DNA from: Candidatus Woesearchaeota archaeon
GTDB lineage: Archaea; Nanobdellota; Nanobdellia; Woesearchaeales; GW2011-AR4
DNA length: 54,080 bases
Direction of reading: 5' to 3'
NCBI GenBank assembly: GCA_016177615.1
Contig: JACOUX010000035.1
Span: 1 to 54,080 of the forward strand
Shown: one piece after another, positions 5,201 through 54,080 of the stretch
Layout: every line of letters starts with the position of its first letter
Position numbering within the stretch: the stretch's first letter is position 1
The notes under the pieces: model-generated
The model's database searches: none
Seen by the model: only the letters and a program-made list of their open reading frames with translations
What the model was told of the DNA's origin: nothing
Translations under genes and position numbers: made by a program

Positions 5201-6866
5201 CACTGGTATCGTTGCTTGGGTGCCTTCAAATTCGGATGTTGGAAGCCATTCAATTACGCTAAATGCCGGCGACGGAAACTTGTCCTCAAATCAGACATTT
5301 ATATTGGAAGTCATCAATGTCAACGATGCTCCAAATCTTACAACAGCATTGATTGATATAAAGTTCCCTGAAGACAGCTTCAATGACACTTTAAACTTAA
5401 GCAGGCATTTTACAGATGTTGACAATGCAACATTAAGCTACTCCGCAAGCTCAAATGATACAAATGTAAGCATAACAATTTATCAGAATAGCACAATCAA
5501 GTTTAATTCTTCCAAAGACTGGAATGGGATAGCGAACGCCACAATCTTGGCAAGCGATGGGCAATATAATGCCAGCGGCAGTTTTATTGTAAATATCACG
5601 CCAGTGAACGATGCTCCTGTTCTTAACACTATACAAAACATCACAGTCAACGAAACAGGCTTGGCTGACATATACTCTTCAGGAAATGTGATGGCAACAG
5701 ACATTGACGGAGATAACATACAGTACACTTACACAGCGCCTTTAAACGCCTCTGGCCAATGGCAGACAACATATACTGATGCAAGAAAATACCTTGTAAC
5801 GGTAACAGCAAATGATTCAAACGGCGGCATTGACCAGAAAAATGTTGTTATAACCGTTCTTGACAAGCCAAAAGATGAGAATGACACTGTTGTCGGAAAT
5901 ATAACGGACATCATAACCACAATCCCAAATCTGGATTTGAAAATAAACAACTCTTTCTTTAATTCCAGCGGCTTGTTTAAAGGATTGAATAAGCTGAATT
6001 TCACAGAAGGGAATAAGACCTTGATTGAATTTGACTTTAGCTTCTCAAACAGCTCAAAATTCAGCTTTGTTGGCATAACAATAAACAGCACCAAGATTGA
6101 TGGAAAGAACAGCTTGATCATTAGGGGAATAAACCTAACCGGCCAGGGAAGTACAAAAACAGTTTATCTGAACAGAACAAACACAACATACAACTCAGTC
6201 TGCATCAGGGACGAGGATATATCTTCCATTACGGAAATGACATCAGACTGCAGCTCTTCCAGTGAAACAAAGCTTCCATGCGACGGAATTTCAACAAACA
6301 GCTACATCTGTACATTAGAAGACACTGCATACAAAATAACAGGATTGCTGCATTCCGGAATAACTCAAATATCTTATGACAGGCCATCTTCCAGCCCAAG
6401 CAGCAGCAGCCCTTCAAGCAGCAGCAGCGGTGGAGGTGGCGGGGGAGGCACGCCTGGATTTGTATGCTTCATGGACTGGAAATGCGGAGAATGGTCTGAA
6501 TGCAAAGATGGAAAACAAGCAAGGCAGTGTGATTTTGTAAAAGTGCCGCAGCATGTTCAGGAAACCCAATGCCCTGAAGCCTCAAAGCCTCCTGAAACAG
6601 AAAAGGCTTGTGAAGCAAAAGTGGAAGCTGCTGCAGAAGAGAATGAGACTAAAAATATTGGAGTGGCTGCCAAGGAAAATACTATTGCTCCGGAACAGCC
6701 GCAAAATAATAAACCTGCCAATAAGGGGCTAATGAGCGCAATCACAGGCGCTGTCTCAAGGTCTGCAGGCACAGCTGCAGGAAAAGCAGGCATTATGCTG
6801 GCTTTGCTCGCAATAGCAGGAATCGGATGGTATTCCTTTAAATATTACCGCAAATCCTCATTATAA
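2238..6866 (+). CDS. Large secreted/membrane-anchored subtilisin-like (S8) serine protease with Ig/cadherin-like repeats, TSP1-like motif and C-terminal TM
   Basis: Catalytic motifs VIDTG, HGHGTHVAG, AAGNSG, GTSMATPHVAG; N-terminal signal-like helix; Ser/Gly-rich linker; WKCGEWSECKDGKQARQC; terminal TM helix. TTG start in the track. Confidence 0.85.
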   Translation: MAAKLRHRGAVLGILALLVFALAVYASESSQLKKGKAYDDSFDSNPKKGSDSSVGLDVTASKSRKGGANAGTDIQAAKGRSKREGKIELAAYESKGEKVKIIVEVEKDDNYLKSMALGNEFKEFGQRKFKSITVSKSELGKLEGMDSVKKVWIEKQYEKLLELSAPIINAESFWNNGYNGSNVSVCVIDTGIYKSHPAFGSRVIAEKDFVTSDSDGDNPDDYHGHGTHVAGTVAGNNETYKGIAFGANLINAKVFSSSTDLASTTDIMSAIDWCITQGADILTLSLGGGDETNDGSDSLSQYVDLAVDQGKIVTIAAGNSGPGGSSSSCRTARDSSGSSYSICEPGLAHKVITVGSSQTGKSGTTKDGLSGFSGRGPTGDERIKPDLLAPGEVITSTWKDGSFNSISGTSMATPHVAGLAALLLQAKRNLTPEETKVLFMNSVYDYGVFVKDNDYGTGRINASRALNEINYTKIGNITKYDKVHNIFVPSGTKEIRATLYWPENYSIHNNIDLYLLDPSGRIRDLSTWVYNTDEMVISSSPNIFGWWKILVNPFDVNGTQKYAIASSIMPSEQMFIKINATSNITFHHLNVTDSSQLKVNIDWNQTAQDMNIFLYNTSGILKSYSNATNTSSENITIENAEAGLWLLKVVPAGFGRFSNIKYAITSTFDISNQTFDVESPIVNLTSPANSTYSGNVNLSFIPYDNFNSFIDCYRSVNETKTFIDSVKNGTQYSTIINLGDGAYSLSVNCTDLSNNFGVSEPAAFSVDATPPNITINSPSNNSFYNVNLTTLNLTSAESAAWINGSLDNGQFSNFCQNCSSYNKTFESLTDGLHSLIILASDLINIANLSISFTIDTILPSIRLSSLTNNSAEEIGTIVKFNISDATGISAWYWNGSINISLGEHSINTSNFTKREFATIVYANDSAGNLNSQFFKFILDSRPIINTTPVNLTLEDESYSYDSNASDADNDSLNFSLIQYPEGITINSSTGIVAWVPSNSDVGSHSITLNAGDGNLSSNQTFILEVINVNDAPNLTTALIDIKFPEDSFNDTLNLSRHFTDVDNATLSYSASSNDTNVSITIYQNSTIKFNSSKDWNGIANATILASDGQYNASGSFIVNITPVNDAPVLNTIQNITVNETGLADIYSSGNVMATDIDGDNIQYTYTAPLNASGQWQTTYTDARKYLVTVTANDSNGGIDQKNVVITVLDKPKDENDTVVGNITDIITTIPNLDLKINNSFFNSSGLFKGLNKLNFTEGNKTLIEFDFSFSNSSKFSFVGITINSTKIDGKNSLIIRGINLTGQGSTKTVYLNRTNTTYNSVCIRDEDISSITEMTSDCSSSSETKLPCDGISTNSYICTLEDTAYKITGLLHSGITQISYDRPSSSPSSSSPSSSSSGGGGGGGTPGFVCFMDWKCGEWSECKDGKQARQCDFVKVPQHVQETQCPEASKPPETEKACEAKVEAAAEENETKNIGVAAKENTIAPEQPQNNKPANKGLMSAITGAVSRSAGTAAGKAGIMLALLAIAGIGWYSFKYYRKSSL

Positions 6867-37900: not shown

Positions 37901-40836
37901 GCAATGGCAGCAATTTATTTAACTGCTTTCAGTTTGAGAGCCAAACAACTTGCATTAACCAGACTAATTGCAAGTGGTTCTCCGATCCAAAAGCAAGTTG
38001 CGATGTAAGCCATTCAACAGACTGCTTTAACTTTAAGGCTCAGACCGGCTGCAATTCTAATCTGAATTGCTCATGGACAGGTTTAGATGCAAATAGCGGC
38101 TGGTGCGATCAAAAAGTAAACAGGTGCCACTGGAATTTTACCCTTAGCACAAGCGAGGATAATTGCAATGCAGACCCGTTATGTTATTGGAAAAGCTGGG
38201 GAGGAAGTTATAGTTCTTGTGAGCCAAAAGTGGCAAATTCAACGACAGAATCCGGATGCGCAAGCCTGAATGGCACCTGGAGAAGCGGATGGTGCGAGTC
38301 AGCATCAGTAGTAACCTCTTTTACAGGAATGGATATGGAAACCCCTCCAACACCATTGGGCAATGAGCTTTGCCCAGAAAACGGCATTTCGCCATTTAGC
38401 GACATATGCTACTTTGGAATGAAGGACAGCAAAGACAACTTCGGCTTAGGAACAGGTGTTAGCAATATCAGAGATGCTGCAATGTGCAATGGTGTTTCAA
38501 CATGGCAGGGAGTTGGCAATGGAAATTACACAGTTAAGTTTTATTGGTATGTTGACTCTGATGGCAAATCTTCCGGAGGATGTGCATTAAATTCTAACAC
38601 CAGCAGCAGTGGATGGGATATATACTTTAGATATGAAGCAAGCTATGTTAATGGCTCTGTAAAAGAATCAAAGAAAGTGCATAGATGCATAAGCAGCGAA
38701 TGGAAGGCTTCTGACATAAAGATAAGCGCTTGGAAAGAAAAGATGTGCAATGATATACAAGGAGGAATGATCAGCGTTAATAAAGACGACTTAACAGCTA
38801 TTAGCGGCTTATTGAACTTGTCATCTACACTTAGATTTTATGCCGCTACCGCAAACGAAACTACCAATGAAACTACGCCATTAGACACAGTAGGGCCAGC
38901 TTACTTTACCCCAGGCACGATAGATTTTATACCGGAATGCTGCTGGGCAGCAGGAGACCAAAACATTGATTGCGATGGCGATGGCTTAAATCCTGCAAAT
39001 GATCCTGAATGCACCTTATTGATGTACAAAGGATATATACCATTTGAGGATTGTTTTGGCAATAGCATTGATGAAGATGCAGATACGCTGACTGATTGCA
39101 ATGATCCTGATTGTAAGGGAAATCCTTACTGTGTAGAAAATAAGCTTGGAGTTGAAGCCCCTGGCTATGTAGACAATACCGCTCCGAAGATAGTGTACTT
39201 GAATGTCGAAAAATATCCTGATGCTGTGCTTTTAAGCTTTGATACAGATGAGCCGGCAAATGGCAGCTTAGACTTCTACTATAACGTGAGCAATTGCATC
39301 ACTCTAAATAAAACAGTGTATGATGTCGGAATATACAACACAAACACACAAAAATATAAAAACTGGCATGAGGTTGAGCTGTACAATGACACAGGCATCA
39401 ACTCATTAAATTACACCTTAAGCGGAAACAAAACTTACTTCTACAAGCTAAAAGTATGTGATAATGCAGGAAATTGCGCGCAAAGCGCATGCTCTAACTT
39501 TACAACAGCAATATCTGCAGCTAAATGCAAGAAGTGCAGCTTTATATTTAACATGGACATGCCAACAGGATGGATATTAGACATGGATTTAGACGCAGAT
39601 GGCACTTATGAGACGGCATTAAGGAGGCAATGTGGGGCAAGCGCCGGAGTATTGCTGAATTATACAACAGCTAGAAGTGTAAACTTAAGGTTTAGAGACA
39701 ATTCTACAAATACCACGTTATTCTTCTTAGACACAAAACTTACAAGAAGCTTGGCGCATAATGAAGAGATAAGAGATGTTGACGACGCTGGCGGAATCAA
39801 GAGCGGCACAACATCCACTACAGCAGGAACTACGGTAGGCTATAGCGGGTTAAACAAAGAAATGTCCAACAAGCTTGTAGATAAGTTCCATCCAAAGTCC
39901 TGCATGATACAGATTGATAAGGGTACAGGCGCATGCTCACTGCTTTACCATTGTGATGACGACTTAAAGAATTGCATACGCAGAGATACAGAGGCTGGAG
40001 TAAGCTTGAATGAAACCGGGCCAAATTACTGCATCTGGAAGATTCCATGTATATTTTCAACATATGCAGGCGGAGTGCCAGGATCTGCGCCTGGAAGCAG
40101 CAGCTCTTCAAGCAGCAGCAGTGGCGGAGGCGGAGGGGGCGGTGGCGGCGGAGCAGCATCCTCAGCAAATACAGAAGCATCTGCCGCCAGAGTTTGGGAG
40201 GCAATAGAGCCTGGATCAGTAGGGTACTTGACAATTAATAATGAAAAGATAGCAATAATAGAAGTTGCAATGGATGTCAGCAAAAAGCTTGCAAACCCCT
40301 CTATAACAGTCGAAAGCTTGAAATCAAATCCGTTATCGACGGCAGCTGGAGCAAAAGTTTACCAATATATCCAGCTGACAAGGGCCAATATATTAGACTC
40401 TGATACATCAAAAATCACAGTTAAATTCAAAGTTCCAAAATCATGGCTCGCAGCTAATTCAGTCAGTGAAGATGATATTGCGCTGTTTAGGTATTCTGAA
40501 AACAAATGGAATGATATACCCACAGCAAAAATTTCAATTGGTGCAAGCGATGTTTTTTACCAGTCCGCATTGCCTGGATTCAGCACATTCGCTATTGGAG
40601 CTAAGGAACAGGCTCAAGCACCGCCAGTCGAAGAGCTGGAATTGCCAGAAACTATTCCAATTGTGGAAGCAGCAGCTGCAGAGCCTGCCGAAGAAGCAGC
40701 CGAGCAGCCAGTGCAAGAAATTGAGAAGCCAGCCGATAAAACATTAATCTCCTTTGTAGTTATTGGCATAGTAATTTTTGCTGCATTATTTATTGGCTTT
40801 TATGCTTGGAAGAAAATAATCTCAAGAAGCAGCTAA
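34990..40836 (+). CDS. Giant 1948-aa Cys/Trp-repeat surface protein with PGF-pre-PGF-like domain and C-terminal TM
   Basis: Many repeats of the form C-W-x(n)-C-x-W-x(n)-W-C; CFDGIDNDGDAKVDCADGSC motif; Ser/Gly linker; YQYIQLTRANI...FKVPKSWL...LFRYSENKWNDIPT...PGFSTFAIGA; terminal TM. Confidence 0.8.
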   Translation: MLEKRGNFKRAIFLVSLIAFVTLFFIVSMFVYGVTNCWTYSSESTCEANTKCTWHDDAWGSGWCEQIDCWSFYTQKDCSNANATYNLSCKWQTPSLPPGWCTEANCWDFGGTNQTVCENDTRRDYGLSCLWGPTDPSPNYIGYNCFGGPQCYRTIPYTEAECKNITGCSWGACYQKGFWDYTAQASCESNPSYYWRSDNICQPIGCYDEKHKAQTSCDNSSDSLVCKWNSKYSYCETLNCWSFNYNQTGCQSTAIPGLECIWKDPWCETKACWQNNDETSCKGKTGYDAKNCTWHAASVVTTGWCEKIGCWNVPGINSSNGSIVINETQCVNNSYGLNCVWESNTWGSFCYENRNVSVLSCSNITDEKKCFDSMWCWWDSTSNRCNEPTAGTEGGAIGGSLLAPGCWIFDLNQSSCTNTTGCAYDSTLKLCNLSTTVAADIADGISSNGLNCTLLNNTNLCNGATFLPYCCEWQGSKCQQNKYSTTCHDNLKKPPEGANYCDDYNAYTSEAKCNEIANNPWYMPCRWNNNTKHCEFKGDKFFTQGEEGDIDLVDNKEMCENGVGGLWITESYCGAGNMTNASIAIGRCAPKLGSKGGNCDSACFRCEFKPDGSNHSTEGAARTACEGSALGFCVWKSDSGAQNKLGFCEPSAEIKGGSVGKCDSNNCDACNSYNSVNAKTKCQEAKCEWKIDLLDATKGFCVSAGKTTCLDRCESCNEQKSCVEKGRGINGSCTWDSNLGLCKKTSTGDNTGAVETCFDGIDNDGDAKVDCADGSCFTDPFCGGSSIKDCWQYSNNASCVDNGCRWFNDTYGSWCDQPGAVCWQYDGDSAGCLQQSACQWQPAAAGTTMCNLNESVWDECAPLSQSDCNNNNRCYWFVDPYLSTINASKGWCGHRHEICHFNQTLMTNSNASCSLAWQKIGGNLNCTWYFDPWSQNSGYCESSCFSLGNDCSLNGMCKSKDGWCNPSGFGGNGSNLFNCFQFESQTTCINQTNCKWFSDPKASCDVSHSTDCFNFKAQTGCNSNLNCSWTGLDANSGWCDQKVNRCHWNFTLSTSEDNCNADPLCYWKSWGGSYSSCEPKVANSTTESGCASLNGTWRSGWCESASVVTSFTGMDMETPPTPLGNELCPENGISPFSDICYFGMKDSKDNFGLGTGVSNIRDAAMCNGVSTWQGVGNGNYTVKFYWYVDSDGKSSGGCALNSNTSSSGWDIYFRYEASYVNGSVKESKKVHRCISSEWKASDIKISAWKEKMCNDIQGGMISVNKDDLTAISGLLNLSSTLRFYAATANETTNETTPLDTVGPAYFTPGTIDFIPECCWAAGDQNIDCDGDGLNPANDPECTLLMYKGYIPFEDCFGNSIDEDADTLTDCNDPDCKGNPYCVENKLGVEAPGYVDNTAPKIVYLNVEKYPDAVLLSFDTDEPANGSLDFYYNVSNCITLNKTVYDVGIYNTNTQKYKNWHEVELYNDTGINSLNYTLSGNKTYFYKLKVCDNAGNCAQSACSNFTTAISAAKCKKCSFIFNMDMPTGWILDMDLDADGTYETALRRQCGASAGVLLNYTTARSVNLRFRDNSTNTTLFFLDTKLTRSLAHNEEIRDVDDAGGIKSGTTSTTAGTTVGYSGLNKEMSNKLVDKFHPKSCMIQIDKGTGACSLLYHCDDDLKNCIRRDTEAGVSLNETGPNYCIWKIPCIFSTYAGGVPGSAPGSSSSSSSSSGGGGGGGGGGAASSANTEASAARVWEAIEPGSVGYLTINNEKIAIIEVAMDVSKKLANPSITVESLKSNPLSTAAGAKVYQYIQLTRANILDSDTSKITVKFKVPKSWLAANSVSEDDIALFRYSENKWNDIPTAKISIGASDVFYQSALPGFSTFAIGAKEQAQAPPVEELELPETIPIVEAAAAEPAEEAAEQPVQEIEKPADKTLISFVVIGIVIFAALFIGFYAWKKIISRSS

Positions 40837-48210: not shown

Positions 48211-49050
48211 TTACAGCATAGGCAGGCTGTCAATCGGGCTTTTTGTGCCAATCATCTTGGGAGAGGCAATATGGAGATAGACCATTGTTGTCTCTGCGCT
48301 GCTGTGCCCGAGCAGTGACTGGACTTCTGCAACGCTGCTTCCGTTCTCTATGAGGTGCGTTGAAAAGCTGTGCCGCAAAGTGTGCGGATGGGCATGCTTG
48401 GATATTTCGGCGCTCTTCACTGCGTTTTTTATAATAGACCTTACGGACGCTGTTGTGAGGTGCCCGTTGAATCCCCTGAAGATATATGAATCAGAGGACG
48501 CGCATTCTTTTGAAATGTAATTTTTCAATTCTTCCCTGGTATTATCAGCTATGATAAACATCCTGTCTTTATTTCCCTTGCCGTGCCTCACCCACCCATA
48601 ACCATTTTCTATTTCCAGATGTTCCGGCTTGAGATGGACAAGCTCGCTTACCCTCAGCCCGGCAGAATAGAGCAGCTTTGCCATAAGCTTGTGCTTAGGA
48701 TTGCTTATTGAATTTATTAGTTTTACGATTTCTTCTTTAGTCAAAACTATTGGCAGAGCTTTGGGAGTTTTAGAGTACCTTATATTTATCATTAAGCGCT
48801 TATGCAATACACTGCCATAAAAAAACTTCAATGCGCTTAAGTTTACATTTATTGTGCTGCCGCATGCGCCTTTCTCAATCATTAAGTCAAGATAGGATTT
48901 TATATCTGCTTTCTTGATTTCATTCGGCTCCTTTTTGCACCAACTGAAAAATTTTCTGACACACTGCCTGTAAGTCTTTATGGTTTTGTGGCTTAATCCT
49001 CTTCTAAGACCTTCTTTTCTAAGCAATTCCGATACGTCCATTTTGATCAC
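48211..49050 (-). CDS. xerA: Tyrosine recombinase, Xer family
   Basis: AGLRVSELVHLKPEHLE, GKGNKDR, HTLRHSFSTHLIENGSSVAEVQSLLGHSSAETTMVYLH. Confidence 0.85.
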   Translation of the reverse strand: MIKMDVSELLRKEGLRRGLSHKTIKTYRQCVRKFFSWCKKEPNEIKKADIKSYLDLMIEKGACGSTINVNLSALKFFYGSVLHKRLMINIRYSKTPKALPIVLTKEEIVKLINSISNPKHKLMAKLLYSAGLRVSELVHLKPEHLEIENGYGWVRHGKGNKDRMFIIADNTREELKNYISKECASSDSYIFRGFNGHLTTASVRSIIKNAVKSAEISKHAHPHTLRHSFSTHLIENGSSVAEVQSLLGHSSAETTMVYLHIASPKMIGTKSPIDSLPML

Positions 49051-49564: not shown

Positions 49565-49678
49565 CTTTTTCTTATTTTCTTATTTTTCAGTCATAACGGA
49601 TTTTTGCCCTATGGGCATTGAAATTCAGCAGAATTAAGCCTTTATAACCATAAATCTGAGGACTTTAGGTTATAGGCT

Positions 49679-49932
49679 GTTATACTCAATTTTTTTCTTT
49701 AGTTTGAAATGCAAATATTTCAGTCGTCGCAAAAAATAACAACAAGGGCAGGCAAACACGGGTTTTCTTTGTGAAAACCCTATTCGCAAAGGAAATTCCC
49801 CACATTTCGCATGGGAAATTTCCTCTGCACTCAGTTTGCCGCCAATGTTATTTTTCGCTCCTACGCTGATTGCACTTCGTGCTTGCTGCATTTGCCAAAA
49901 GAACTAAAGAAAAATCGACAAAGGAGCATAAC
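49679..49932. repeat. Palindromic branched repeat element A
   Basis: Ends GTTATACTC / GAGCATAAC; outer stem TTTTTCTTTAGTT (49692-49704) pairs exactly with AACTAAAGAAAAA (49902-49914); nested hairpins GGGTTTTC/GAAAACCC and GGAAATTCCC/GGGAAATTTCC. Confidence 0.8.
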
Positions 49933-50008
49933 AACTGTTATATTGAATTATTACTCGGCATTTTTTCCTTTATTTCTTTGTGGATAAGTTTCACTTAAAC
50001 CATCTTGC
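49928..50008 (+). repeat. 81-bp exact direct repeat, left copy
   Basis: Identical to 54000-54080 (ATAACAACTGTTATATTGAATTATTACTCGGC...CATCTTGC). Confidence 0.95.
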
Positions 50009-50251
50009 AGCAGCAATAACGGCAGGCAAACACGGATTTCTTGGTGAAATCCTGCTCACAAAGGATTTTCCCCACACTTCGCATGGGAAAAATCCTCTGC
50101 ATTCGATTTGCCGCCATTGCTGCTGCTATGGAAAAAATGCCTGCGTCATAACTTTTCGGATTTTTTGGAAATCCTCAACCCTGCATCCTGATTTTTCCAG
50201 CTCTCGCTCACTATCGCTCGCAGAGGGAAAAATCGGGTAGGGCAATATAAC
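49937..50251. repeat. Palindromic branched repeat element B
   Basis: Ends GTTATATTG / CAATATAAC; GGCATTTTTTCC (49957-49968) pairs exactly with GGAAAAAATGCC (50130-50141); stem GCAGCAGCAAT / ATTGCTGCTGC; nested hairpins GGATTTC/GAAATCC and GGATTTTCCC/GGGAAAAATCC. Confidence 0.8.
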
Positions 50252-50342
50252 ACCGATTAAGTTCAATAATTTTTAGTGGCTAAACGTAGATAGGGGGACA
50301 TTTCTACGAAAGAAACTGAGGGGTGGGGCGAACGAAACAAAG

Positions 50343-51506
50343 ATGATGTTTAATATGAAAATTTATAAAGAAATCATACTTAGTAACATTATGAATAGGG
50401 TAATAAAAATACTGATTCCAACGATTGTCTCCTTAATTATAGCTACTTTTCTTTATGTTCTTAACTTATCTAACTGGAATAATTATGTGTTTATTCTTTC
50501 GTCAATAATACAAATATTAACCTTTGTATATTGGTTGATAGGAGACTCAAATCAAAAACAGATTATTGAAGCTGTATTAGGGACCAAAAACGACCTAAAA
50601 GAAACAAAGCAGATTGCACAAGAGGTTAGGGATTTCCAAAATCAAAAAGAGAGCCTTCTTGAGAAGAGACAAAAAATATTGGTTAACCTGTTCAAAAATG
50701 GAGCTATACAAACTATCGAGATTAACAAAATAATAAAATCAGTAAGAAATAAGGGTATGTTTGTGGTTTCAAGTTTTGGTGGGCATAATATGAAACTTAA
50801 AGGAGTCTTAAAAGCAATGAATAGTTCAGAACCAATATCGATTGTTCCAAACGTTCTGTATAATCTAGGTTTTAAGAAGGTATACTTTAATGAATTTATG
50901 TTTATTCTACTCAAAGAAGATCTACCCCCAAAACTAAGAAGTGCTGAGAAATTAAAAAAAATAATCTATGATGAATTAATTAATAAATGGACTTATCTAC
51001 AAAAAATAATAGTAGATAATAACTTCAAAAAATATGATAAGTGGAAAGATGGCAGCAAATTTTTTTGTAATCTTTGTTTGATTGATATAGAAGAAGGAGA
51101 AATGGGTATTCTCTATAAAAGACTTAAAGAAGCGCCAGAATTAAGAGATTCATTTTCGGAGGAATTCAAAAGTTTACTTTTGAGTCATTCAGACAAAATC
51201 CATATTGGTCAATTAATCAAAGATAAAATAAAAGCTAATCAAGTCTTGGATAAAATTACTATTGGTCTATTACTTAATAATCTACCAGAAGGGATAAAGG
51301 ACACTCTGCTTTTAAAAGAAAAAGAGATAATGACTCAACTTAAAATCAATAGATTTATTGATATTTCGAATATAACTGACCCAAATCTTAAAGATGTAAT
51401 AAAACAATATATTCCTGCAAATCAAGTTGAAGAAATATCCAAAAAAATCATGTCAGAAATAAAAGATTATGTGCAGATAGTGAGAGATTTAGAATTATTT
51501 CAATAA
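50343..51506 (+). CDS. Hypothetical membrane protein: two N-terminal TM helices plus large cytosolic domain
   Basis: VIKILIPTIVSLIIATFLYVLNL and YVFILSSIIQILTFVYWLIG followed by about 310 soluble residues. Confidence 0.6.
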   Translation: MMFNMKIYKEIILSNIMNRVIKILIPTIVSLIIATFLYVLNLSNWNNYVFILSSIIQILTFVYWLIGDSNQKQIIEAVLGTKNDLKETKQIAQEVRDFQNQKESLLEKRQKILVNLFKNGAIQTIEINKIIKSVRNKGMFVVSSFGGHNMKLKGVLKAMNSSEPISIVPNVLYNLGFKKVYFNEFMFILLKEDLPPKLRSAEKLKKIIYDELINKWTYLQKIIVDNNFKKYDKWKDGSKFFCNLCLIDIEEGEMGILYKRLKEAPELRDSFSEEFKSLLLSHSDKIHIGQLIKDKIKANQVLDKITIGLLLNNLPEGIKDTLLLKEKEIMTQLKINRFIDISNITDPNLKDVIKQYIPANQVEEISKKIMSEIKDYVQIVRDLELFQ

Positions 51507-51568
51507 AGTGGTATACTGATAATATCTTCTTTTCAGAAGTAAAAAAATGAAACGAGTTGGGAGAGTTC

Positions 51569-52162
51569 TTAACTATGAATATATGCGCTTAATATTTCAG
51601 AAGGGTTACCTATTCTTTTTTCATTTTTTAAATGAGAAATATCAATAACTGCCCCATGTTTAATAAATTCATCATAAAACTTATTATATTCCTTACCCCA
51701 GTATATCATCGCACATGACATTGGAGCACCTTTACCAGTGCTATTGCCATTTTCCAAAAACTTTAAACGAGTATCAAATAAAAAGCAAATGGCTTTTGCC
51801 CTGCCATAAACACTTTTTTTCCAATGACCTGTATTTGTTGCAACTGGTACTAACGCAATAACTTCTGAACCATAATTTTCATGCGCTTTTGCACATTTTT
51901 CTAACCAATGTTTAATAGACGTTTCACTGTCTTTATTCCTACCATAGGGTGGATTAACATAGATGCTAGGGAATTTCCATGATTCAATCAATCCATTTTT
52001 TTTGGGCAGGCTGTACTCTACTTCAGCATTAACAATGGAAAACTCATTAGAACATGGATCTAAATGTATCTTTCCACTAAAAACTTTCTTAACTGCATCT
52101 ACATACTTTTTAGGGGTACACCAATCCTTACTTTTTGAATTGATATTTCTTCCAGCTGTCAT
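51569..52162 (-). CDS. Phage-type DNA N6-adenine methyltransferase (Dam-like)
   Basis: DWCTPKKYVDAVKKVFSGKIHLDPCSNEFSIVNAE...SIYVNPPYGRN...; DPCS and NPPYG catalytic motif. Confidence 0.82.
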   Translation of the reverse strand: MTAGRNINSKSKDWCTPKKYVDAVKKVFSGKIHLDPCSNEFSIVNAEVEYSLPKKNGLIESWKFPSIYVNPPYGRNKDSETSIKHWLEKCAKAHENYGSEVIALVPVATNTGHWKKSVYGRAKAICFLFDTRLKFLENGNSTGKGAPMSCAMIYWGKEYNKFYDEFIKHGAVIDISHLKNEKRIGNPSEILSAYIHS

Positions 52163-52234
52163 TTTATCTCCATTATTGAGTATATGATTAAGTATTTAAA
52201 TTCTTTTTGATTGTTGGTAACTAATTGGTAAATA

Positions 52235-52260
52235 AGTATATATTTAGTGGTATATATACT
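52235..52260. promoter_or_regulatory. Candidate operator: perfect 9-bp inverted repeat
   Basis: AGTATATAT-ttagtggt-ATATATACT, immediately upstream of the winged-helix gene and in its divergent promoter region with the methyltransferase. Confidence 0.5.
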
Positions 52261-52268
52261 TTTCGATT

Positions 52269-52523
52269 ATGAATAGCAACATGGCACTAATAGGTTACAT
52301 CAAAGCGAGTAATTATAGAATTGAACTACTTAAAAAGTTAATTGAAAAACCATTTACCCCTACCGAACTTGCGAATTCAACTAAAATAAATAAAGGTCAT
52401 GTTAGTAGGACACTAAAGGAACTCTGCGAGAAAAAACTTGTGGAGTGTGGCAACGAAGAAGCAAAAAAAGGGAGAATGTATTTGATTACTGAATTAGGTA
52501 AGAAAATAATAAAGGAATTATAA
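52269..52523 (+). CDS. Winged-helix (ArsR/MarR-like) transcriptional regulator
   Basis: ELLKKLIEKPFTPTELANSTKINKGHVSRTLKELCEKKLVECGNEEAKKGRMYLITELGKKII. Confidence 0.75.
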   Translation: MNSNMALIGYIKASNYRIELLKKLIEKPFTPTELANSTKINKGHVSRTLKELCEKKLVECGNEEAKKGRMYLITELGKKIIKEL

Positions 52524-53669
52524 ATTTGAGATAACCAGTGAATTGTTGATTTTACTTATTTTTTTAAAGTTTAGGTCTTCAATGTCATAGAATATTGCAT
52601 TTTTGTTTTCGGATATTATTTCTTGAATAAGTGTTTTAACATCTTTGTTTGTCTTTAGTGCATCTTTACTGATGAACTTTAAGAAGTCATCACCAAATTT
52701 TTTGTGAAATTTCTTAAATGCTTCAATGATTATATAATCTGGAACAACCAAATTATGGTCAATTGTTTTTGTAACAACCTTTCTTGATTTATCTTCCCAA
52801 TGTGAAACTTCTCCAATTACAAGTATCGGTGTAAAATTGTCCGTTTCTTTCTTTTCTTCTTTACCCCATTTACCAATACGTTTTTTTCTGACATCTAAAG
52901 CAACTAATGCTGATTGTTTAGCTTTTTCTATTGTCTGTGGTCCAGTTAAACAAGTTTCTATTTTGAAAAAAGTTTTGTTTTGTATTTTGGTAAGGGTAAA
53001 AACATGGCATAACCTTACTTTTTCTGAAAGATCTATCAACTTGTTTTCTGGTTTAATAATCCTTACTGTTCCATTTTCAACCAGCGTGATTAAAAACCTC
53101 TTATTGACAGAAATCTCAAATTTTTCATCAATCAGATTATTTTTCTGTTTAGAAGATTCTTCTTCATTGGCATTTTTTGAAGTAATGTGAATTTCTGCAT
53201 TATTGCCAGAAATTTTTTTACACACGATGTTAATTTTTATCTCTCTGTCTAACCATCTTGGATTTATGTTATGTTGGTAGGCTTCATTTACGCCCAATTG
53301 TAAATCTTGATATCTCGTCTCGGCATGAACAGTTACCTCAACACCAACTTTTTTACATTCAATGAAACCTATGAGATTATTTTGGTCAATATCATCATTC
53401 TTATCAACAGTAAAATTTCCATTTTTATCTAACTTAAAAAAACTGAATTCAACTTTATGTTTTGCTCCAGTAAATCCTTCTAATGATAATTCGGTTTGCA
53501 TGGAGTTTAATAAATCTTGGGAAGAATGACAATAGCCCATTATTACTATTTCTAACATATCTCCTATTTTTCTTCCAATCTGATGTCCTTTTTTTCCAAA
53601 TTGTTCTATGTAAACATATACATCAGATAAATACTCAAAATCTCTTGAATCGTTAAATTTCATTGACAT
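52518..53669 (-). CDS. Putative restriction-endonuclease-like protein (PD-(D/E)xK-type core suspected)
   Basis: Contains KVEFSFFKL...LIGFIECKKVGVEVTV (ExK-like motif after a beta-strand-like segment); located with a methyltransferase and an HTH gene. Confidence 0.45.
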   Translation of the reverse strand: MSMKFNDSRDFEYLSDVYVYIEQFGKKGHQIGRKIGDMLEIVIMGYCHSSQDLLNSMQTELSLEGFTGAKHKVEFSFFKLDKNGNFTVDKNDDIDQNNLIGFIECKKVGVEVTVHAETRYQDLQLGVNEAYQHNINPRWLDREIKINIVCKKISGNNAEIHITSKNANEEESSKQKNNLIDEKFEISVNKRFLITLVENGTVRIIKPENKLIDLSEKVRLCHVFTLTKIQNKTFFKIETCLTGPQTIEKAKQSALVALDVRKKRIGKWGKEEKKETDNFTPILVIGEVSHWEDKSRKVVTKTIDHNLVVPDYIIIEAFKKFHKKFGDDFLKFISKDALKTNKDVKTLIQEIISENKNAIFYDIEDLNFKKISKINNSLVISNL

Positions 53670-53999
53670 ACTTCAAGCGTAGTATCCACTTATTAAATAG
53701 ATTTATACCACTTAGTTACCACGCAAAACTAACGCCCCACCCCCTACGACTAACTAACGAAACGACTGAAACGAAATGTCCCCCTTGATGTTTGTTCTTG
53801 ATTGCTCACTTTGTTCGCTGGATTGAACACGAGCCACTAAAAATTACTCTGCGGACGCAGGTTTCCAGAACTTCGTAACTGGAAACGAACTTAACAAGAA
53901 TTATATTTAATTCTTCACAATGGCTCTCGCCTTGTTCAGAACTCGAAACCTTTAATCTCAGGCAAGCTGAGTTAAAGCTTTCGCCCTTGCGAGGGAAAT

Positions 54000-54080
54000 A
54001 TAACAACTGTTATATTGAATTATTACTCGGCATTTTTTCCTTTATTTCTTTGTGGATAAGTTTCACTTAAACCATCTTGC
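54000..54080 (+). repeat. 81-bp exact direct repeat, right copy (start of a second element B, cut by window edge)
   Basis: Identical to 49928-50008. Confidence 0.95.

Follow-up and report, generated by a model that had tools for sequence, protein, structure and literature searches.

A putative integron-like cassette array next to a XerA-type recombinase in a Woesearchaeota archaeon

What are the two large palindromes that lie in tandem near the end of a contig from Candidatus Woesearchaeota, close to a recombinase gene? The window analysed here, 54,080 nucleotides in length, is the whole of this contig (C16) of a 1.54-Mb genome. A sequence-only reading had described palindromes A (49679-49932) and B (49937-50251) as branched structures with covarying arms, and their similar ends, the AACT spacer and the paired cores are all present. 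Folded as single-stranded DNA, A and B reach -51 and -65.4 kcal/mol (z = -6.6 and -8.9, respectively), and no shuffled sequence equals these values. That reading treated each palindrome as one element, which has to be abandoned: the outer arms are recurrent recombination sites, whereas the branched core within them, here termed the Y-core, is a separate hairpin repeat, dispersed independently. The terminal GTTATA/TATAAC repeats are recombination-site arms of an origin distinct from that of the core. We consider it likely that A and B are cassettes without genes that head an integron-like array, associated with a dedicated XerA-type recombinase and a split, branched site.

The row of cassettes in the window

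Dif-like junctions of the form RRGnnnnTAAC-ANNNN|TTAnnnnCAAT divide the region into head-to-tail cassettes, and the GTTATA…TATAAC ends of A and B are arms of these junctions. At its left the row starts from an attI-like site, next to which a XerA-type integrase gene (48211-49050) lies in divergent orientation, and it runs through A, B, a 3.6-kb gene cassette (C) and a 109-bp cassette to B again at the contig end, with junction sites at 49921, 50240, 53884 and 53993. The borders first given to the palindromes need correction, those of the functional units lying 1 nt and 5 nt away (A, 49680-49937; B, 49938-50256). Each cassette of the window opens with TTAnnnnC, and its end is complementary to that opening, a pairing referred to as P1: TTATACTC..GAGCATAA in A, TTATATTG..CAATATAA in B, TTAAGTTC..GAACTTAA in C and TTATATTT..AAATATAA in the small cassette.

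The attI-like left end (GAGGACTTTAGGTTATAGGCTG, 49658-49679, plus strand, as are all features below unless stated) is found in relatives as the same block beside the integrase, followed there by different first cassettes. The crossover would fall after its last base, 49679, and similar CTG|TTA blocks occur in other families at starts predicted from the complementarity of cassette ends. Cassette A (TTATACTC...GAGCATAAC-AACTG, 49680-49937) has a homologue in G009C36 (89% over 225 bp) in which the P1 arms and the neighbours differ, and it is joined to B at 49921-49948 (AAGGAGCATAAC-AACTG-TTATATTGAAT). The start of cassette B (TTATATTG...CAATATAAC-ACCGA, 49938-50256), which is likewise gene-less, is found at five places, each behind a different upstream cassette, recurring at 54010, on C32, in G009C36 and in G009C60. 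The B/C junction (GGGCAATATAAC-ACCGA-TTAAGTTCAAT, 50240-50267) leads into cassette C (50257-53900), whose joined ends fold with P1 as TTAAGTTC/GAACTTAA and a second stem, P2, as AATTTTTAGTGGC/GCCACTAAAAATT. It carries genes for a Dam-like (phage-type) N6-adenine methyltransferase (51569-52162, minus strand; PF05869, 2.7e-16), a winged-helix regulator (52269-52523; PF25213 and PF01022 above cut-off) and two proteins of unknown family without a Pfam or NCBIfam match, of 387 aa (50343-51506) and 383 aa (52518-53669, minus strand). Next come the junction at 53884-53911 (AACGAACTTAAC-AAGAA-TTATATTTAAT), the 109-bp gene-less cassette (TTATATTT...AAATATAAC-AACTG, 53901-54009) and the junction at 53993-54020 (GGGAAATATAAC-AACTG-TTATATTGAAT). 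The second copy of B (54010-54080), part of an 81-nt exact repeat of 49928-50008, ends with the contig.

Several minor features accompany this layout. Assembly breaks lie within cassettes A or B at contig ends of the window, G009:C36, G009:C60, G001:C8, G001:C11 and G008:C9, which implies several copies per genome. On another contig of the source genome (L009, G000:C32:5500-9500), a truncated B ends beside a secE-like and spt5-like pair, after which an L11-like reading frame seems interrupted by unrelated sequence, either an array remnant or an assembly join. A P2 variant, YATTACTC...TGCGTCATACT, with conserved mismatches, is common to a sub-class of cassettes (B at 49938-50256 and cassettes in L205, L211, L212 and L217). 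Elsewhere in the window, a stretch rich in AGCAGC/GGCGGAGG is repeated at 6402-6448 and 40096-40157 and is probably a shared low-complexity protein linker; the match of a 62-aa ORF to Curtovirus V2 was under the Pfam cut-off and was taken as chance.

Junctions, folded ends and integrase across genomes

The simple pattern ATATAA-N6-TTATAT is enriched within the window (17 matches versus 4.8 expected) and proved too weak genome-wide (393 versus 353 in the control), and a 28-nt junction profile, with two 11-bp arms around a 6-bp centre, was used in its place. In the first array set most profile matches scored 26-35 bits, compared with at most 9.3 in reversed sequence. A search of 353 genomes of the order returned clustered sites, and in the 20 further array contigs examined every junction match lay on one strand and none on the opposite one. 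The total came to 144 distinct junctions and 115 cassettes (median spacing 659 bp, interquartile range 489-1073), with array rows in some 20 families and cassettes that differ per genome. In related genomes the left flank of the array and the recombinase gene recur side by side, and the inserts that follow are different ones, divided by sites of this type. Among viral contigs, 14 stretches carried the exact pattern and just one had two sites, so the junction is not an obvious viral feature.

One and the same cassette can turn up in genomes that belong to different families or orders, each time among other neighbours, and the homology stops at the predicted borders, as between G064C5:2932 and G228C28:2992 (90% over 484/490 bp) or G064C5:8801 and G472C9:3693 (83% over 537/539 bp). 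The cargo comprises NUDIX proteins, methyltransferases, ParE, PIN and HEPN proteins, restriction-modification enzymes and various other enzymes, and the longest ORFs of the cassettes lie equally on both strands (50 plus, 48 minus). The junction spacer is common to pairs of junctions more often when these have the same left arm (14/107 versus 562/10296). A rule by which the spacer always moves with the upstream cassette was nevertheless downgraded, as homologous cassettes may differ in the spacer at their end. Tiny gene-less cassettes of 70-120 bp occur (G039:C16, L201 in G136C25 and L244 in G472C9), in places as near-identical tandem copies; on G039:C16 (L219:9380-9608, in reversed orientation) three sites lie 100 bp apart.

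The ends of a cassette match each other, and not across the junction. Over the five variable bases of P1, complementarity averages 3.68 of 5 within cassettes versus 2.60 between the halves of one junction, the permutation control giving 2.38 (sd 0.09, with a maximum of 2.75 over 10000 permutations), a pattern that fits a circularised cassette as the ancestral unit. From position 11, the cassette start also pairs near the cassette end, forming P2, with a median exact run of 12 nt; runs of at least 12 nt are present in 51 of 99 cassettes, compared with 0.25% of swapped pairs. In most cassettes the joined end and start fold as a branched four-way structure, in the order P2, one or two side hairpins and P1 with its 6-nt loop, the side hairpins often being CTCTGCGGACGCAG plus a stem capped by GAACTTCGTAAC. 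The bottom strand of the joined ends was the more stable in 75 of 97 cases, a preference that depends on the energy model, and on this strand the hairpin caps read C-GNA-G, a loop that is unusually stable in DNA. Both features point to, and do not prove, a single-stranded substrate. The earlier suggestion of a folded single-stranded DNA recombination site with the nearby Xer enzyme as partner is the best-supported reading of the outer part of A and B.

The integrase (279 aa, 48211-49050, minus strand, divergent from the array) is a XerA-family tyrosine recombinase (Pfam PF00589, 1.7e-40; NCBIfam XerA_Arch NF040815, 225.6 bits, cut-off 220) with conserved catalytic residues, whose nearest named relatives are in Woesearchaeota genomes and whose relatives in the PDB are XerA structures 5hxy and 4a8e. 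Its score for integron integrase TIGR02249 is under the cut-off (191 versus 265 bits, matched in two pieces), alignment with a XerA paralogue shows it to lack an IntI-type insert, and none of the 40 genomes of the order that were scanned reaches the IntI cut-off. The source genome also encodes a second XerA (G000:C35:1975-2772), a genus-wide housekeeping gene, at whose locus there are no junctions. In a maximum-likelihood tree all 21 of the 21 array-adjacent enzymes fall into one 43-member clade (support 100/99), and 22 housekeeping-type enzymes lie apart from it in the other half of the tree. An integrase at least 46% identical was present in 13 of the 19 array-carrying genomes checked, and fragmented assemblies may explain the others; none was found in a comparison set made up mostly of genomes that lack junction matches. 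Integrases 86% and 64% identical to that of the window occur in other families (L232, G121:C33:631-1464; G209:C5), and such resemblance suggests that the integrase itself may have been transferred horizontally.

An independent set of 19 loci was chosen solely by homology to the window integrase, some of them from other orders of the class, and 15 of these had more than 2 kb of sequence on the array side. Junctions were present in 10 of the 15, all 29 of them in the predicted orientation, and were undetected in the other 5. P1 matching in these loci was 3.83, versus 1.77 for all combinations of starts and ends. When the start of the first cassette is predicted from the first junction, it mostly comes directly after a short conserved block whose last bases are CTG or close to it. 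This attI-like site, whose distance from the integrase gene is mostly about 100-270 bp, reads GACTTTAGGTTATANNCTG|TTA within the genus and is TTCGCATATANNCTG|TTA-like outside it. The array and its link to this integrase are well supported.

The inner core and its covariation

The Y-core lies at 49735-49852 in A and at 50008-50125 in B, both on the plus strand. The covariation first noticed between A and B extends past these two copies: in 26 distinct copies of the core 92.8% of the cells pair, versus 74.1 after shuffling. Both sides of a pair have changed in 141 cells (44 when shuffled, at most 43 with the register slid) and just one side in 4; these counts are not probabilities, since the copies are related and the alignment was built for this analysis. 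Three further covarying pairs, beyond those of the sequence-only reading (alignment columns 52-102, 55-99 and 56-96), lengthen the second hairpin, an extension that carries a conserved CA bulge and a TC/TC loop. The unpaired positions are conserved too.

A functional RNA had also been proposed, and this is now disfavoured, given that nearly all of the covariation is Watson-Crick (of about 750 paired cells, 4 are one-sided or G-U), that the best Rfam matches of A and B were far under the gathering threshold, and that the bottom strand is energetically favoured in the joined sites. Compensatory change had been taken to imply a functional fold. The covariation is real, but alone it does not prove selection for folding, as self-templated repair of a palindrome can also yield it.

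A proposed capture system and its alternatives

According to the mechanism that we propose, the XerA-type recombinase, encoded divergently at the left end, would add cassettes one behind another at the attI-like site. An excised circular cassette would bear the complete site, its end and start meeting as GnnnnTAA-CANNNN-TTAnnnnC (P1), flanked by the longer, cassette-specific P2 stem and usually by two more hairpins. This branched site, probably folded from the bottom strand, would be recognised by its shape and by the conserved bases TAACA, TTA and CAAT, so that cassettes unrelated in sequence could be exchanged. Insertion into attI or another site would split the cassette site and leave hybrid junctions, and the Y-core of A and B would be carried as cargo. 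The units, their orientation, matching ends and attI-like block, the linked integrase clade and the sharing between families and orders appear in the sequences themselves; from them we infer excised circles, a single-stranded DNA substrate, single-strand exchange and catalysis by the array integrase.

The reading to which we lean, with only slight preference, is that of an independently evolved second integron-type capture system, native to DPANN archaea, with a XerA-derived integrase that recombines sequence-diverse cassettes at a site that is split, branched and single-stranded. Arrays of this kind were not found described in the openly searchable literature, including a review on tyrosine recombinases of archaea, a scope that takes in neither subscription papers nor preprints, so that priority is uncertain. 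The array system is real, large and apparently undescribed. Integrons, long held to be bacterial, are the chief platform known for storing and shuffling single genes. If the proposal is true, a parallel built from XerA in the small-genomed Woesearchaeota and their relatives would mean that structure-read cassette capture arose more than once, and it would account for much of the turnover of accessory genes (restriction-modification, toxin-antitoxin, NUDIX, methyltransferases) in uncultivated archaea. The explicit site model enables cassettes to be annotated in many genomes, and it becomes possible to test directly how Xer recombinases gave rise to integron integrases, a question of long standing.

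A less likely account, which has to be taken seriously, is that the units are Xer/dif-type modules that recombine, as do the pdif modules of Acinetobacter, through ordinary 11-6-11 sites in double-stranded form, and that the hairpins are incidental or transcription terminators. pdif modules are bounded by sites of alternating orientation, whereas the junctions here are all direct (29 to 0 in the integrase-chosen loci, none opposite in the 20 array contigs). Xer exchange requires a matching centre, but centres differ between evidently recombined sites (ACCGA, AGGCA, AAGAA, AACTG), and neither the cassette-specific arms nor P2 and hairpins at fixed offsets would be expected of such modules. The arrays do resemble pdif modules in that gene modules bounded by Xer-like sites are shuffled between replicons (PMC6449649, PMC13141974), and differ in their dedicated integrase, chromosomal location, attI-like end and folded cassette ends. 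With archaeal Xer/dif they have in common an enzyme of the XerA/C/D family, here XerA, and a site with two AT-rich 11-bp arms, ATATAA/TTATAT cores and a 6-bp centre, and archaeal XerA recombines dif without partners (PMC2958812). However, dif in Thermococcales is a single site away from xerA (PMC2958812); instead of one conserved dimer-resolution site per chromosome, the arrays have many variable, cassette-matched sites per genome beside the enzyme gene, and their enzymes form a clade separate from the housekeeping XerA.

Less probable again is a neutral origin of the covariation, in which palindromes are corrected from their own template as they replicate and no selection for folding is involved. 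Palindromes self-correct, the near absence of one-sided changes in the Y-core helices fits arm-to-arm templating, and many P2 stems could in principle be maintained in this way. Conservation extends to the unpaired positions, however; complementarity is kept between ends 0.5-4 kb apart, for which local template switching is not easily responsible, and the P1-P2 geometry is fixed.

A conventional integron with IntI and attC, as reported in Archaea by Ghaly et al. 2022, is very improbable and is already contradicted by the topology of the site. The architecture is the same as in integrons, including archaeal ones (PMC9668308): an integrase beside the insertion site, an attI-like site and tandem exchangeable cassettes of about 0.5-1 kb with mixed accessory cargo, in addition to sites conserved in structure yet variable in sequence and an apparent preference for the bottom strand. 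The array enzyme is, by contrast, of XerA type without the IntI-specific domain, as its scores and missing insert indicate, and its cassette genes lie in both orientations, unlike those of typical integrons. In attC sites, which measure 57-142 nt, R'' and R' enclose the hairpin (PMC2727003), whereas in the array the site is split, cassette start and end forming P1, with partners 6 nt apart, and P2 around side hairpins that lie outside P1. An attC site has RYYYAAC...GTTRRRY around its hairpin; in the array the cleavage motif would be A/G^TTA, and a G precedes TT in only 10% of the 144 junctions.

That A and B are mere MITE/REP-like hairpin copies beside a Xer gene, with no array, is just as improbable as a full explanation and is already contradicted as such, because it leaves unexplained the junctions around gene cassettes that lack a Y-core, the P1 matching and the test on integrase-chosen loci, although it remains true of the inner core, which is dispersed elsewhere in the genome and beyond it. 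The Y-core, a dispersed repeat of the genus, was found in 20 of the 59 genomes searched (41 distinct full or partial copies), both within arrays and dispersed outside them, and further copies in the same genome were found by blastn on C22, C31, C32 and C59. Like REP/BIME or MITE-type palindromes it forms dispersed intergenic hairpins, often in inverted pairs, but it differs in being three-way branched with conserved unpaired bases and in that no mobilising enzyme was identified. A Y1 transposase was rejected as its mover, since presence does not follow copy number: G012 and G019 have many Y-cores without Y1, and G002 and G014 have Y1 without a Y-core. A dispersed Y-core occupies the tip of a palindrome specific to its locus, for instance AGCAAAAAAT..ATTTTTTGCT, and often two cores, one of subtype I and one of subtype II-IV, form an inverted pair (L005, L122-L125, L128, L095, L096, L098, L099, L102). 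The apex position and the inverted pairing suggest insertion into hairpin tips or a two-ended element.
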